Positions 16,267 through 21,641 of a stretch of DNA of 64,000 bases are shown one piece after another. Position 1 is the first letter of the stretch. The number at the start of each line of letters is the position of its first letter. Location of the stretch: positions 1 to 64,000 of the forward strand of contig MKVQ01000020.1 in assembly GCA_001899635.1 (NCBI GenBank). Direction: 5' to 3'. The position numbers and the translations under genes were made by a program. This stretch comes from Myxococcales bacterium 68-20 (lineage in GTDB: Bacteria > Myxococcota_A > Polyangia > Polyangiales > Polyangiaceae). The notes beneath the pieces are model-generated. The model saw only the letters and a program-made list of their open reading frames with translations. It was not told the DNA's origin and ran no database searches.

Positions 16267-16617
16267 TCAGCGCTGCATGATCCGCGCGAGCGCGAGCGCG
16301 TGCTGCACCTCGGCGGTCGTGAGTCCGGCGCGCGCGGCGATCTCGTCGGGACGAGGCGGCCTTCCGAGCTCCGTGCGGAGCTCGCGAGCCGCGGCGACGA
16401 CGCTCTTCAAGTGGAGCTCGCCTCGTCCGCCTTCGGCGGAGACGACACGTCGGCCGCGAGCCTCGATCGCCGACAACATCGCGTCGATCTCGGGAGGGGC
16501 GATCGCACGCGTGCCGATCGCCTCGCCGACCGCGTCGAGCGTGATCGAGTCTCCCTTCGCCGTGCCGCGGACGAGGTCCTCGACGAGCGCGGCGAGCTCC
16601 GGACGCAGCCCGCTCAC
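16267..16617 (-). CDS. Stand-alone sigma-factor-like protein (regions 1.1 and 3 type)
   Basis: 116 residues from GTG 16617, whose GTGA overlaps the stop of the upstream gene by 4 bp; this overlap decides the start. The first ~65 residues (LVEDLVRGTAKGDSITLDAV, PPEIDAMLSAIEARGRRVV) resemble sigma-70 region 1.1. The rest (KSVVAAARELRTELGR, PPRPDEIAARAGLTTAEVQ) resembles the region-3 pattern GRxPTxxEIAxxxGxxxxxV. The core-binding region 2 and the -35-reading region 4 are absent, so it cannot be a normal sigma factor. A DNA-binding or RNA-polymerase-associated role is inferred. Third gene of the helicase operon. Confidence 0.65.
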   Translation of the reverse strand: MSGLRPELAALVEDLVRGTAKGDSITLDAVGEAIGTRAIAPPEIDAMLSAIEARGRRVVSAEGGRGELHLKSVVAAARELRTELGRPPRPDEIAARAGLTTAEVQHALALARIMQR

Positions 16618-17171
16618 GCCGATGCGCCCGTCGGCGACGGCCAGAGCTTGCGGAAACCGACCGCGACCACCGCGCCGTCCTCGCGTAGGACGAGCGCACC
16701 CCAGCGGCACTTCTCCACGACCTTGCCATTCACGAGGCCGCCCGAGTCGTCGGCGTAGCGGACCGACTGCCCCTCGACGAGCTGACCGAAGAGCCGCGCG
16801 TCGCCCGCGATCTTCTCGAGCTCGATCGCGACCTCACCGCCCTCGTGGATCGTGACGTCGGACGGCGGGAGACGACGGAGACGAACTCCGTCGAGAAGCA
16901 CGTGCACCTCGTTCTGCGAAGCGAAGACGACCACGCCGTGCATTCGCCGATCGTCGCCCGCTGCGCGCGCAGCTGGGCTTCCGACCGGGAACGTGACGAG
17001 CACCCCGGGCGCGAAGCCCGCAGGCGGCGTGTCGATCTCGTTGACGCGTCCGCCGAGGCGCGCGCGGGCGGCGTCGATCGACGGCTTCTTGCGCACCTCC
17101 TTGGTCGGCGTGGCAACGATGGCCGGATCGGAGAAGAGCGGCAGGTTCAGCTTCTTGCTCACGCCTTTCAT
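16614..17171 (-). CDS. Protein with two SH3/Tudor-like beta modules
   Basis: 185 residues, starting 9 bp after the helicase stop codon and overlapping the next gene by 4 bp, so clearly in one operon. After a basic N-terminus two similar modules appear: PGVLVTFPVG with HGVVVFASQNEVHVLLDGV (residues ~55-105), and EGQSVRYADDSGGLVNGKVV with WGALVLREDGAVVAVGF (residues ~128-178). They resemble KOW/CarD/Tudor-type barrels that bind nucleic acid or RNA polymerase. No family name could be assigned. A nucleic-acid-related role is inferred from fold type and operon. Confidence 0.65.
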   Translation of the reverse strand: MKGVSKKLNLPLFSDPAIVATPTKEVRKKPSIDAARARLGGRVNEIDTPPAGFAPGVLVTFPVGSPAARAAGDDRRMHGVVVFASQNEVHVLLDGVRLRRLPPSDVTIHEGGEVAIELEKIAGDARLFGQLVEGQSVRYADDSGGLVNGKVVEKCRWGALVLREDGAVVAVGFRKLWPSPTGASA

Positions 17172-17180
17172 CGTAGCTCG

Positions 17181-19742
17181 TCAGGTGCCGATGCGCTCGA
17201 GGGTGAGGACAGGTCTTGCTGCCTCACGCGAGCGGACGAGGTCGATCGACGCATCGAAGAACCAGTCGTTGTCCTCCTCCGAGTCGAGAAGGATCTGCCG
17301 CACGCGCCAGGTCTCCGCCGTCTCCGCGGAGCTGCGGTCGATCGTCGTGTGCTTCGGGCTTCGCGCCTCGGGATCGACGCGAATGAGCTGGTGCGCCTCG
17401 AAGAACGGCGCGAGTGTCTTCTCGATCTCGATCGCCTTGCTTGCCTCGAGCTCGGGTGCCGGTGCGACGATGCGCGCCGCCTCGAGCCAGTCGCGGCGCG
17501 AGAGCGCACGGACGAGCCGGAAGATCTCGTTGCGCACCAGGACGGTGAACGCCTTCTCGTCCTTCGTGACGTCGTGCGAGCCGGCCGGCTCGAGCTCCTC
17601 GCGCACGGGCGTCGGCTCGAAGAGCTCGTGCGGGTTCTTCAGGCGCTCCCACTCGTCGAGCAGGCTCGAGTCGACCTGACGGACGACGGCGCCGAACGTC
17701 GTGATGATGTCGTCGACGTCCTCGTCCTTCGCCCACGCCGGGACGGTCTGGACGAGCGTCTTGTAGACGTCCGAGAGGTAGCGGAGGAGGAGCCCCTCGA
17801 CGCGCTCGAGCCCGTACTCGCGCACGTACTCCTGGAAGGACATCACCGACTCGACCATCTCGCGCGCGATCGACTTCGGCCTGATGTTCTCGGCCTTCAC
17901 CCACGGATGCTTCCGCGCGAAGGCATTGAAGCTGTCGTAGACGACGTCGCGATTCGGCTTCGGGTACTCGAGCTTCTCCAGCTCCGCCATGCGCTCGTCG
18001 TATTCGACGCCGGCGGCCTTGAGCTCGGCGACCTTCTCGCCCTTCAGCTTGTCGAGCTGGCGGCGGAGGATCTGATCCGGATCCTCGAGGATCGACTCGA
18101 CGAACGTGAGCACGTCGAGCGCGTAGGTTCCCGAGTCTTCCGGTGACCACTCGTCTCGACGGCCGAGGATGTCGAGGAGGTAGAGCGAGAGCGCGTGGTG
18201 GAGCGAGAAGTCCTCGCCGAGATCCGCGTTCACCACCGGGTAGCGACGCCCGTCGTCGTCGTACTCCCACTCGAGGATGCCGGCCTCGCGGAGCGTCTTC
18301 ACCATCTCGATCGCCTGGCGGCCGAGGATGCGCTGCTGCGCCTTCCGCTCGTGCGACGCCTTGATGAGGCGCGCGAGCCCCATGCATCCCCCGCCCTCCT
18401 CGCGGGAGAGGACGTTGACGACCATCCCGTGCGAGAGCGAGAAGCGCGAGACGAGCGCCTCGGGGAGCGAGGTCACGAGCCGATCGAACGTCGACTTGTC
18501 CCAGTGGACGTAGCCCCACTCCGGGGGCTTCTTTCGCACGAGCTTCCGCTTCTTGCCCGGATCGTTGCCGGCCTTCGCCTCGAGACGGAGGTTCTCGATC
18601 ACGTGCTCGGGCGCCTGCGCGACGACGCTGCCCGCGGTGTCGAAGCCCTTTCGCCCGGCGCGGCCGCTGATCTGCTGGAAGTCGCGCACGCTCAGGATCG
18701 ACGTCTTCTCGCCGTCGAACTTGCAGAGCCGCGTGAAGAGGACGCTGCGGATCGGGACGTTCACGCCGACGCCGAGCGTGTCGGTGCCGCTGATGATCTT
18801 GAGAAGGCCGCGCTGCGCGAGCTTCTCGACGATGAGACGGTACTTGGGGAGGAGACCCGCGTGGTGGACGCCGATGCCGTGACGGAGGAAGCGCTGGATC
18901 TCCCGGCCGTAGGGGCTGTCGAAGCGCGCGCCCTTCAGCGCCTCCACGATCGCCTTCTTCTCCTCCTTCGTGCAGTAGTCCACGCTCATCAGGTTCTGCG
19001 CTTCCTCCGCGCAGGCCCGCTGGGTGAAGTTGACGAGGTAGACCGGCGCCTTCCCCTTCGCGATGAGCTCGTGGACCGTCTCGTGGAGGGGTGTATCGCG
19101 GTACTCGAAGTCGAGCGGCACCGGGCGATCGTTCGAGCGCACCACCGCGGTCCGCTGGCCGTTCGCGGCGGTGAGGTGCTTCTGGAACGGTTCGGGATCG
19201 CCGAACGTCGCGCTCATGAGGAGGAAGCGCGCGTTCGGGAGCGCGAGCAGGGGCACCTGCCAGGCGACGCCGCGATCGCGATCGGCGTAGTAGTGGAACT
19301 CGTCGATGATCACGACGTCGACGTCGGCGCGCGGCCCTTCGGCGAGCGCCATGTTCGCGAGCACCTCCGCGGTCGCGCACACGATCGGAGCGTCGCGGTT
19401 GACCGTCGCGTCGCCCGTCATGAGGCCGACGTTCTCCGCGCCGAACGCGCGCACGAGCGCGAAGAACTTCTCGTTCGCGAGCGCCTTGATCGGGCACGTA
19501 TAGAAGGAGCGCTCGCCGCGCACGAGCGCGTAGTAGTGGGCGGCCTCCGCGACGAGCGACTTGCCCGAGCCGGTCGGCGTGTTGAGGATGACGTTCGCGC
19601 CCTCGAAGATCTCGAGGATGGCCTCTTCCTGCGCGGGGTAGAGGTCGAGCCCGCGGGAGCCGACGTACGCGAGGAACGCGCTCAGGATGGCGTCGCTCGG
19701 TGCGTCGCTGGGAGGCAGGTCTCTGAGCGTGGCTTCGGCCAT
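17181..19742 (-). CDS. Ski2-like DEAD/DEAH-box helicase with DUF3516-type C-terminus
   Basis: 853 residues from ATG 19742 (an in-frame ATG at 19757 is possible). Superfamily 2 motifs in order: Q-like YPAQEEAI; Walker A TPTGSGKS (55-62, K61); DEFH Walker B (147-150); SAT (177-179); GVHHAGLLPKYR; SGTDTLGVGVNVP; and motif VI QQISGRAGRKG (357-366). This is the Ski2/Mtr4 arrangement. The remaining ~480 residues match the long C-terminal region of bacterial DUF3516 helicases. Such enzymes unwind RNA or DNA with ATP; the substrate is unknown. First gene of a three-gene operon with the SH3-like and sigma-like proteins. Confidence 0.9.
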   Translation of the reverse strand: MAEATLRDLPPSDAPSDAILSAFLAYVGSRGLDLYPAQEEAILEIFEGANVILNTPTGSGKSLVAEAAHYYALVRGERSFYTCPIKALANEKFFALVRAFGAENVGLMTGDATVNRDAPIVCATAEVLANMALAEGPRADVDVVIIDEFHYYADRDRGVAWQVPLLALPNARFLLMSATFGDPEPFQKHLTAANGQRTAVVRSNDRPVPLDFEYRDTPLHETVHELIAKGKAPVYLVNFTQRACAEEAQNLMSVDYCTKEEKKAIVEALKGARFDSPYGREIQRFLRHGIGVHHAGLLPKYRLIVEKLAQRGLLKIISGTDTLGVGVNVPIRSVLFTRLCKFDGEKTSILSVRDFQQISGRAGRKGFDTAGSVVAQAPEHVIENLRLEAKAGNDPGKKRKLVRKKPPEWGYVHWDKSTFDRLVTSLPEALVSRFSLSHGMVVNVLSREEGGGCMGLARLIKASHERKAQQRILGRQAIEMVKTLREAGILEWEYDDDGRRYPVVNADLGEDFSLHHALSLYLLDILGRRDEWSPEDSGTYALDVLTFVESILEDPDQILRRQLDKLKGEKVAELKAAGVEYDERMAELEKLEYPKPNRDVVYDSFNAFARKHPWVKAENIRPKSIAREMVESVMSFQEYVREYGLERVEGLLLRYLSDVYKTLVQTVPAWAKDEDVDDIITTFGAVVRQVDSSLLDEWERLKNPHELFEPTPVREELEPAGSHDVTKDEKAFTVLVRNEIFRLVRALSRRDWLEAARIVAPAPELEASKAIEIEKTLAPFFEAHQLIRVDPEARSPKHTTIDRSSAETAETWRVRQILLDSEEDNDWFFDASIDLVRSREAARPVLTLERIGT

Positions 19743-20132: not shown

Positions 20133-20531
20133 ATGAGCCGCCTGAGTCAATGGGTCTCGATTGGGGTGCTCGCCTGCATCGCCGCGGTCGCCGCGAGCGC
20201 AGAGGCCGCTCCGAAGAAGAAGAAACGCCCGACCCAGGCCAAGGTCGCGAAGACCGAAGAAGCGGCGCCCGAGTTCGACAAGCAGGCCGCCATCAGCGCC
20301 ATCGGCGAGATCAATCTCCAGAAGTGCAAGGCGACGAACGCCGCGAAGGGCGAAGGCCACGTGACAATCACGTTCGCTCCCGCGGGCTTCGCCGAGAGCG
20401 CTCTCGTCGACAAGGGCCCGTGGCTCGGCACCCCAGTGGCCAAGTGCATGGCGCGAGAGTTCAAGAAGGCGAAGGTCCCCGCCTTCAAAGGCGACCCCGT
20501 AACCGTGGGCAAGTCGTTCCAGTTCGAGTGA
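20133..20531 (+). CDS. Small exported Cys-pair protein, AgmX/PglI-like
   Basis: 132 residues from ATG 20133 (MSRLSQWVSIGVLACIAAVA), with a signal peptide cleaved near AEAA. A basic linker (KKKKRPTQAKVAK) follows. The core has C65 (NLQKCKATN), the strand GHVTITFAPAGF, GTPVAKCMAREF with C105, then VPAFKGDPVTVGKSF. This is the same two-Cys pattern as the lipoprotein at 9493-9960 but without a lipobox, so a soluble periplasmic version. Function unknown. Three palindromic repeats follow downstream. Confidence 0.7.
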   Translation: MSRLSQWVSIGVLACIAAVAASAEAAPKKKKRPTQAKVAKTEEAAPEFDKQAAISAIGEINLQKCKATNAAKGEGHVTITFAPAGFAESALVDKGPWLGTPVAKCMAREFKKAKVPAFKGDPVTVGKSFQFE

Positions 20532-20556
20532 CCCGACGCGCCGGTGCGCCTCCGCC

Positions 20557-20748
20557 AGGTCGTTAACCCCACTTAACGACCTCGCGAAGCATGGACACCC
20601 GCGCCGACGAAGGGCCGCGCCGGTTGCTCCTCCGCAAGGTCGCTAACCCCACTAACGACCTCGTGAAGCATGGACGACGTGCCGACGAGGAGCGCGCCTG
20701 ACGCGCCGGTGCTCCTCCGCGAGGTCGTTAACCCCACTTAACGACCTC
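20557..20748. repeat. Three tandem ~80-85-bp units with a TTAA-containing hairpin
   Basis: Three copies of a unit (roughly GCGCCGGTG-CTCCTCCGC, then a palindrome, then GCGAAGCATGGAC). The palindrome arms are AGGTCGTTAA and TTAACGACCT around the loop CCCCAC at 20557-20582 (copy 1) and 20722-20747 (copy 3, one base pair longer on each side). Copy 2 at 20637-20661 has one substitution and one deletion. Spacing is 80 and 85 bp. No T tract follows, so these are not ordinary terminators; they look like a REP/BIME-type intergenic palindrome array. The stretch 20532-20882 holds no gene. Confidence 0.8.
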
Positions 20749-20882
20749 GCGAAGCGTGGACGACGCGCGTATCGAGCTCGGACCGGCGGCGAGGCTGGAC
20801 CGGTCATCGCGTGAAGCGAGCGCTCGTAGTCGTGTGCCAACTCTCTCGTCGGGCGCGCCGATCCCAATGGTAGAGTTCGACC

Positions 20883-21641
20883 GTGAAGCAGCGGCGCCGC
20901 ACGCCTATCCTCGTCGGCCTCATCGCGATCAGCTTCGCCTTCGTGTCGTCGGCCGGCGAGCGCGAGGCGCGCGCGGAGGACGACCCAGACCGTGACCCGG
21001 ATCGCGAGACGGCAGACGGCTCGGACGAGTGCAGAGAGTTCTACGACGAGAACACGCGGCAGCTCCTCGCGTGGGAGAAGAAGCAGCCGGCGGTGCCGTA
21101 CCGGTACCCGCGCGAGCAGACGGTCGGCCACGCACCATGGGGGCAGTTCTTCTCGAGCGTGGGCCACTCCGGCGAGCTGCTACTCGCCACGCTCCTCCCG
21201 CACGTCGGCGCGCAGTTCCGAGGTGACTCGCCCGCGGCGCACGTCGCCTGGCCATGGACGGTGCTCGTGTTCGGTCCGATGTACTCGTGCACGCGCAAGA
21301 AGGAGACGTTCGTCGTCCACGGACACCGCGCGCACCGTCTCCTCGTCGAGCCCGCGGTCGTCTCGAGCAATCGCGGCGTCGGGTTCTCGGTGCGACCCGG
21401 CTATCGGTTCATCTGGCACCCGACCTCGTGGGTCGTCGGCCCGGGCATCGGCCTCGGTTCCACGATCGAGATCAAGGGCAACCGGGAGCCCTTCCGCTAC
21501 TCGATCGGTCCCGAGCTCGTCGCGCACTTCGGCACGTGCTGCCGATCGTCGTACTTCACGCTCGCGATCCGCTACGACCACTTCTTCAAGGGCACGAACC
21601 GCGACATCGTCGGCGCGAGCCTCGGCTACACCTTCTTCTGA
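20883..21641 (+). CDS. Outer-membrane beta-barrel protein
   Basis: 252 residues from GTG 20883. The signal peptide is MKQRRRTPILVGLIAISFAF with cleavage near ARAED. An acidic Asp/Arg segment and a Cys-containing segment follow, then amphipathic strands (VEPAVVSSNRGVGFSVRPGY, VVGPGIGLGSTIEIKG, RYSIGPELVAHFG, YFTLAIRYDHFF). It ends VGASLGYTFF, the C-terminal Phe typical of outer-membrane barrels recognised by Bam. Function unknown. Its end overlaps the convergent tetR-type gene by 16 bp. Confidence 0.7.
   Translation: MKQRRRTPILVGLIAISFAFVSSAGEREARAEDDPDRDPDRETADGSDECREFYDENTRQLLAWEKKQPAVPYRYPREQTVGHAPWGQFFSSVGHSGELLLATLLPHVGAQFRGDSPAAHVAWPWTVLVFGPMYSCTRKKETFVVHGHRAHRLLVEPAVVSSNRGVGFSVRPGYRFIWHPTSWVVGPGIGLGSTIEIKGNREPFRYSIGPELVAHFGTCCRSSYFTLAIRYDHFFKGTNRDIVGASLGYTFF

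Follow-up and report, generated by a model that had tools for sequence, protein, structure and literature searches.

Organization of the locus

The stretch of DNA analysed here (the window, 64,000 nucleotides from the start of contig MKVQ01000020.1 of Myxococcales bacterium 68-20, an 11.9-Mb draft genome) carries on its minus strand a helicase gene (HEL), followed after a gap of 9 bp by a gene for a protein of 185 residues (BAR), which overlaps by the four bases GTGA a gene for a protein of 116 residues (SIG) (Table 1). The original prediction, made from the letters of the window, had given the genes, the gap and the overlap exactly in this way, and a gene caller that works on codon usage and had been trained on related loci agreed, calling all three coding with identical starts. 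The gene upstream of HEL is divergent, and SIG lies ca. 100 bp from its downstream neighbour. Three terminator-like sites were found between 15900 and 20300 (1.5 would be expected), all of them outside the operon, and the scan of the same interval gave no sigma-70-type promoter-like site. The copies found in other genomes are 27-62% (SIG) and 33-61% (BAR) identical to those of the window and, since both are conserved, neither frame is due to chance.

Table 1. Coordinates of the three genes and of the two domains of SIG in the window
Feature	Coordinates	Strand	Remarks
HEL, DUF3516 Ski2/Mtr4-like superfamily 2 (SF2) helicase, 853 residues	17181..19742	-	Walker A TPTGSGKS, DEFH box
BAR, 185 residues	16614..17171	-	RLGGR segment, then probably two SH3/Tudor/KOW-like barrels (predicted)
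SIG, 116 residues, GTG start within the BAR stop (GTGA)	16267..16617	-	Reading frame, codon-usage gene caller
SIG residues 1-62, acidic domain with sigma-1.1-like fold (predicted)	16432..16617	-	
SIG residues 63-116 and stop, basic three-helix domain of sigma region 3	16267..16431	-	Pfam, predicted fold

A small protein made of sigma-type domains

We have focussed on SIG and on an alignment of 37 members of its family, which leaves out two near-copies (L111 and L125) and one sequence with an unclear start (L137); a further locus, L134, gave no tblastn match. The C-terminal half of the protein is established as a sigma region 3 by Pfam, by profile and by fold. In the window copy Sigma70_r3 scored 35.0 bits against a cut-off of 25.3, and the same model matched 35 of the 37 members (E up to 0.1), while the family profile retrieved chains of RpoD, SigA and RpoS from the PDB, with a best E of 9e-9. 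A structure model, built from five sequences, had a predicted local distance difference test score (pLDDT) of 81, and in VIA-align its residues 63-116 could be superimposed on the region 3 of numerous sigma factors with Z of 7-9 and, in most rows, a root-mean-square deviation (rmsd) of 1.3-1.7 Å over 50-54 residues. The model shows this half as folded; it is basic, with a mean charge of +3.8 over the 37 rows, and it ends close to the point at which region 3.2 would begin.

The N-terminal half is likely, judging from its predicted fold, to be similar to sigma region 1.1. Foldseek placed it on region 1.1 of Bacillus subtilis sigma-A (5mww) with an rmsd of 1.9 Å over 52 columns and a probability of 0.99; with the whole SIG model there was no match at E <= 0.001. 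The assignment of this fold comes from Foldseek, because VIA-align listed the C-terminal domain alone. At the level of sequence, Sigma70_r1_1 reached 11.6 bits in the window copy, under its cut-off of 22.5, and matched 14 of the 37 members, the best at 8e-5. Besides, the four best sigma chains from the PDB in the SIG profile search had an N-terminal match of 12-16 bits ahead of the region-3 match, that is, in the same order. This half is acidic in all 37 rows (mean charge -6.7, range -11 to -3), the window copy having a charge of -3.

A sigma region 2 could not be found in the window copy by Pfam even at E up to 10, nor was Sigma70_r2 among the 25 families listed for the 37 members; the 116 residues of the window copy are taken up by the other two domains. 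Region 4 had no Pfam match in the window copy, and each of its models was hit by just three of the 37 members (E up to 0.1). None of the three proteins of the operon has a region 2 or 4 in Pfam. With both of these regions absent from its sequence, SIG cannot by itself be a sigma factor of the sigma-70 family and would therefore be unable to bind the core or to recognise -10 and -35 elements in the way that a sigma factor does. Thus, of the proposal that SIG consists of regions 1.1 and 3 only, region 3 and the absence of regions 2 and 4 hold well, whereas region 1.1 leans on the predicted fold more than on the sequence. We have also considered a split primary sigma, with its region 1.1 moved out of RpoD, and rejected it: the RpoD of this genome retains its own region 1.1 (53.7 bits).

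Elsewhere in the source genome (contig C4, locus L172, 884-1240, minus strand) there is a protein of 118 residues with a region-1.1 match of 17.6 bits (cut-off 22.5) followed by a long acidic tail, a layout like that of the delta subunit of RNA polymerase; its gene adjoins a small gene for 99 residues.

Distribution and genomic contexts of SIG

SIG is a real, fast-evolving protein family of soil myxobacteria, with intact frames of 104-130 residues throughout the alignment. Of 98 genomes from the family of the window, 47 have a full-length copy, a count from which partial or sigma-factor matches, such as one of 50 residues in genome G061, were dropped (the raw tally at E <= 0.01 was 56 of 98). 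Over the whole class the figure was 52 of 289 genomes, 46 of them in the same family, four in two families of the order and two in another family, keeping matches that covered more than 100 of the 113 model positions (raw tally 75 at E <= 1e-6). Beyond the class, SIG was also found in another family of the phylum, in two genomes; in that search 21 of the 377 gave a match at E <= 1e-12. Within the family of the window the genomes that have SIG exceed the others in size (median 9.0 against 6.6 Mb, n=47 and 51, p 2e-4, uncorrected for phylogeny), as they do among genomes at least 95% complete (medians of 11.3 and 6.7 Mb, uncorrected for relatedness). The source genome is unusually rich in sigma factors, with at least 150 matches to sigma region 2 (150 of 250 candidates were scored).

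No model spanning the whole of SIG or of BAR was found in Pfam, NCBIfam, PHROGs or PADLOC. An origin from plasmids or phages was discarded for SIG, which had no tblastn match among them (E up to 0.01) and none in PHROGs. A defence system was discarded as well, SIG and BAR having no match in PADLOC and HEL matching helicase parts alone, such as HamB. The literature on stand-alone sigma pieces, split sigma factors, HelD and delta, and bacterial Ski2/Mtr4-like helicases, judged mostly from titles and the starts of abstracts, gave no description of SIG. The family is apparently undescribed; its parts are known domains, and we could not find their combination described.

The neighbourhoods of SIG vary from one clade to another, and in the loci read there was no partner gene of SIG or BAR conserved across families. 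A further 36 SIG loci were read in the family (L101, L103-L137); in ten of them SIG lies upstream of lptA and/or hpf-ptsN-hprK-rapZ-npr, with hpf in seven of the ten, and in one clade of Polyangiaceae SIG heads an lptA/lptB/hpf-ptsN-hprK-rapZ-npr locus. Eight of the ten lie, as labelled rows, on one side of a branch of the SIG tree with support of 100/99. The arrangement can be seen in L127 (8308-13776) and in similar stretches of L121, L122, L128, L130, L131 and L137; in L127 Pfam confirmed LptA, an ABC protein, S30AE, EIIA, HPr kinase, RapZ and HPr, and in L128 enzyme I. The lptA/lptB/hpf-ptsN locus is the place of rpoN (sigma-54) in many Proteobacteria. No gene of the size of rpoN was found between lptB and hpf in L127; here a small sigma-70-like gene stands at a locus that is often that of sigma-54. 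In another clade SIG adjoins recA.

HEL and BAR

HEL is by its sequence a clear member of the DUF3516 family, with both the helicase core and DUF3516 present. PF12029 (DUF3516) matched the whole C-terminal part with 543 bits (E 8e-163, positions 1-461 of the 464 of the profile), DEAD scored 73 bits (E 3e-20) and Helicase_C 25 bits. The nearest solved proteins are DOB1/Mtr4 (ca. 200 bits), Ski2 (ca. 190) and the Hel308/Ski2-type DNA helicases (ca. 124). HEL is close to being a core gene of the family of the window, since DUF3516 was found in 51 of the 60 genomes searched; a literature search for the term DUF3516 found no paper using it. Upstream of HEL, two divergent genes (132 and 252 residues, 20133-21641, plus strand, clusters c19 and c52) have relatives beside HEL in several more members of the genus.

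BAR had no match in Pfam, NCBIfam, PHROGs or PADLOC. The family, in an alignment of 20 rows, conserves the RLGGR segment and motifs similar to EKCRYGALV and VGFRKLWP, and it is present in 50 of the 289 genomes of the class; the family of the window accounts for 34 of these and two further families of the order for the other 16. The two small beta-barrels that had been proposed for this protein are plausible, although an AlphaFold2 model from two sequences was poor (pLDDT 53) and the sequence profile reached ribosomal L24 (KOW) alone, at a non-significant E of 0.24. The model has two sets of strands, and its best Foldseek match was the tandem Tudor of SETDB1 (E 2e-4), with KOW pairs of Spt5 lower in the list, so that two SH3-like (Tudor- or KOW-like) barrels are the likely structure. 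At six loci of family f5 (L203, L204, L205, L209, L210 and L213) BAR adjoins a small gene (cluster k3), and the copy beside BAR in L209 is a PilZ-domain protein.

The operon is kept within one genus

The three genes are found together in seven of the 12 genomes of the genus sampled, so that the arrangement is kept beyond one strain. They are adjacent in six (the window, L100, L102, L147, L148 and L220), and the seventh (L150) has one extra gene between HEL and BAR. The 4-bp overlap of BAR and SIG is found in four of the seven (the window, L100, L148 and L150), and the linkage persists at just 48-62% identity of BAR and SIG. Two more genomes have HEL and BAR with no SIG adjoining: in G295 the contig ends after the pair (L221) and there is no full-length SIG elsewhere, while in G299 the pair (L219) and SIG (L149) are on different contigs. 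G004 and G050 have HEL and lack BAR and a full-length SIG, and G096 (83% complete) lacks all three. On the SIG tree the rows from the triads fall, together with others, into a single open fork, and the joining of the operon is not dated by it. HEL-BAR-SIG is, in other words, an operon of one genus only, and an assembly with the helicase would belong at that level and not be the general role of the SIG family.

A possible role and its alternatives

We propose, with a probability of about 40%, that SIG is a two-domain accessory protein of RNA polymerase made of sigma-type domains, comparable to delta and not a sigma factor, that in this genus is coupled to HEL and BAR. We favour this reading because delta is the closest working analogue. 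In its favour we also count the matches to regions 3 and 1.1, the acidic and basic halves kept through the family, the linkage in seven genomes of the genus, the larger size of the genomes with SIG and the many region-2 matches of the source genome. In SIG an acidic domain, similar to region 1.1 or to the N-terminal domain of delta, would be joined directly to a basic three-helix domain of region 3, and the most likely action of the protein would be one in trans, on promoter complexes or on the polymerase, as with the delta subunit of Bacillus. The 1.1-like domain might sit on or near the main channel or the jaw of the polymerase and the region-3 domain might provide a second anchor, to the polymerase or to upstream DNA, the outcome being a shift in sigma exchange or in the release of nucleic acids. 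As SIG is translationally coupled to HEL and BAR in this genus, the three are probably part of one process there, and they could, for instance, jointly clear RNA or stalled transcription complexes.

There are several observations that weigh against such an accessory protein coupled to the helicase. A profile of the isolated N-terminal domain retrieved no sigma-70 chain from the PDB (E up to 10), and region 1.1 of the RpoD of the source genome scored just 3.3 bits, so that a winged helix of another kind could make up this half. In E. coli the extended -10 element is read by H455 and E458; at the first of these positions S, G, R, D, K or I is found in 32 of the 37 rows of SIG, histidine not being among the residues listed, and at the second a glutamate is found in just 10. 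Delta has a long acidic disordered tail where SIG has its basic region-3 domain. As for the helicase, none of 44 SIG loci outside the genus (L101, L103-L137, L151-L156, L222, L223) holds HEL or BAR and none of 40 BAR loci (L085-L099, L202-L218, L224-L231) holds HEL or SIG, in a screen part of which tested the genes of the gene caller alone and may have missed a small gene. Over 60 genomes the co-occurrence of SIG and BAR was not significant (p 0.08), and that of SIG and HEL was weak (p 0.03, HEL being nearly universal). The tie of SIG to the helicase that the original prediction had made is therefore real in one genus and does not extend to the loci read elsewhere.

These unlinked loci speak for the main rival, a coincidental operon, in which three independent families of Polyangia would be neighbours in one genus and SIG would have a general role unrelated to the helicase. 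The variety of contexts points the same way, for example the lptA/hpf-type loci and the well-supported branch on which eight of the ten fall, and so does G299, with SIG apart from HEL-BAR; against it stands the linkage kept in seven genomes at such low identity, with the 4-bp overlap in four of them. We regard this explanation as a serious possibility, if somewhat short of an even chance. A different alternative concerns the polymerase itself: SIG could be a small DNA-binding regulator, a winged helix plus a basic helix-turn-helix, that makes use of sigma-type domains without binding polymerase. The basic C-terminal domain with its helix-turn-helix type of fold, the variable neighbourhoods and the weak matches of the N-terminal domain to other winged helices (MCM_WH_arc, MCM4_WHD, MarR_2 and HTH_47) would fit, but the members match region 3 far more often than anything else and an N-terminal half that is acidic in every row is unusual for DNA binding, which makes a regulator of this kind rather unlikely. 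That SIG is the decayed remnant of a sigma-factor gene, as the loss of two essential regions might suggest, is largely refuted by its conservation: the frames are intact over several families and another lineage of the phylum and some residues are nearly invariant, e.g., the arginine aligned with position 468 of E. coli (35 of 37 rows). We give this last explanation hardly any credit.

Extracytoplasmic function (ECF) sigma factors are made of regions 2 and 4 only, without 1.1 and 3, and SIG has just the two sigma domains that they are without, in genomes rich in region-2 genes. It is conceivable, in our opinion a long shot that nothing here supports directly, that SIG is a shared complement acting in trans with ECF sigma factors, adding main-channel gating and an upstream region-3 contact in a modular holoenzyme; the many region-2 matches of the source genome make the idea testable. 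A conserved free-standing protein of regions 1.1 and 3, in bacteria so rich in alternative sigma factors, would be a new handle on how the polymerase is shared among competing sigma factors. Its coupling to HEL in one genus would also allow one to test whether bacteria, like eukaryotes, link transcription with helicase-driven clearance of RNA.

Comparison with known systems

Among the DUF3516 and Mtr4/Ski2 helicases, the core of HEL is closest to Mtr4 and Ski2, the difference being that in this genus HEL precedes BAR and SIG; an exosome-like partner gene is absent from the operon. Sigma regions are normally found in one chain, and the known pieces that have broken away from it are the 1.1 domains of the delta type, the SigO-RsoA pair and the PhyR mimic. 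Compared with a primary sigma-70 (RpoD/SigA), SIG has region 3 by sequence and fold and a predicted 1.1-like fold ahead of it, in the same order, but it is without regions 1.2, 2 and 4, has not kept the extended -10 contacts and stops before region 3.2. In SigO-RsoA, a split sigma, sigma regions are also carried by small separate proteins (PMC8103513, PMC10141391). This pair, however, has regions 2 and 4, exactly those that SIG is without. PhyR is a response regulator that acts by sigma mimicry; SIG, in contrast, has no receiver domain. The likeness between them is that of a sigma-like piece serving as a regulator (mentioned in PMC8103513).

The closest parallel is that of Firmicutes delta (RpoE) and HelD, although SIG had no match listed to a HARE-HTH domain of the delta type and no delta chain was among the structure matches listed. 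According to PMC7749165, delta, with an N-terminal domain that resembles sigma 1.1, is a polymerase-binding protein that acts together with the motor HelD and favours those alternative sigma factors that are without 1.1. Both cases would have a small accessory protein with a sigma-1.1-like N-terminal domain and a helicase-like motor as its partner (PMC7749165), which differs in type: HelD has a UvrD-type NTPase, whereas HEL is an SF2 helicase of the Ski2 type.

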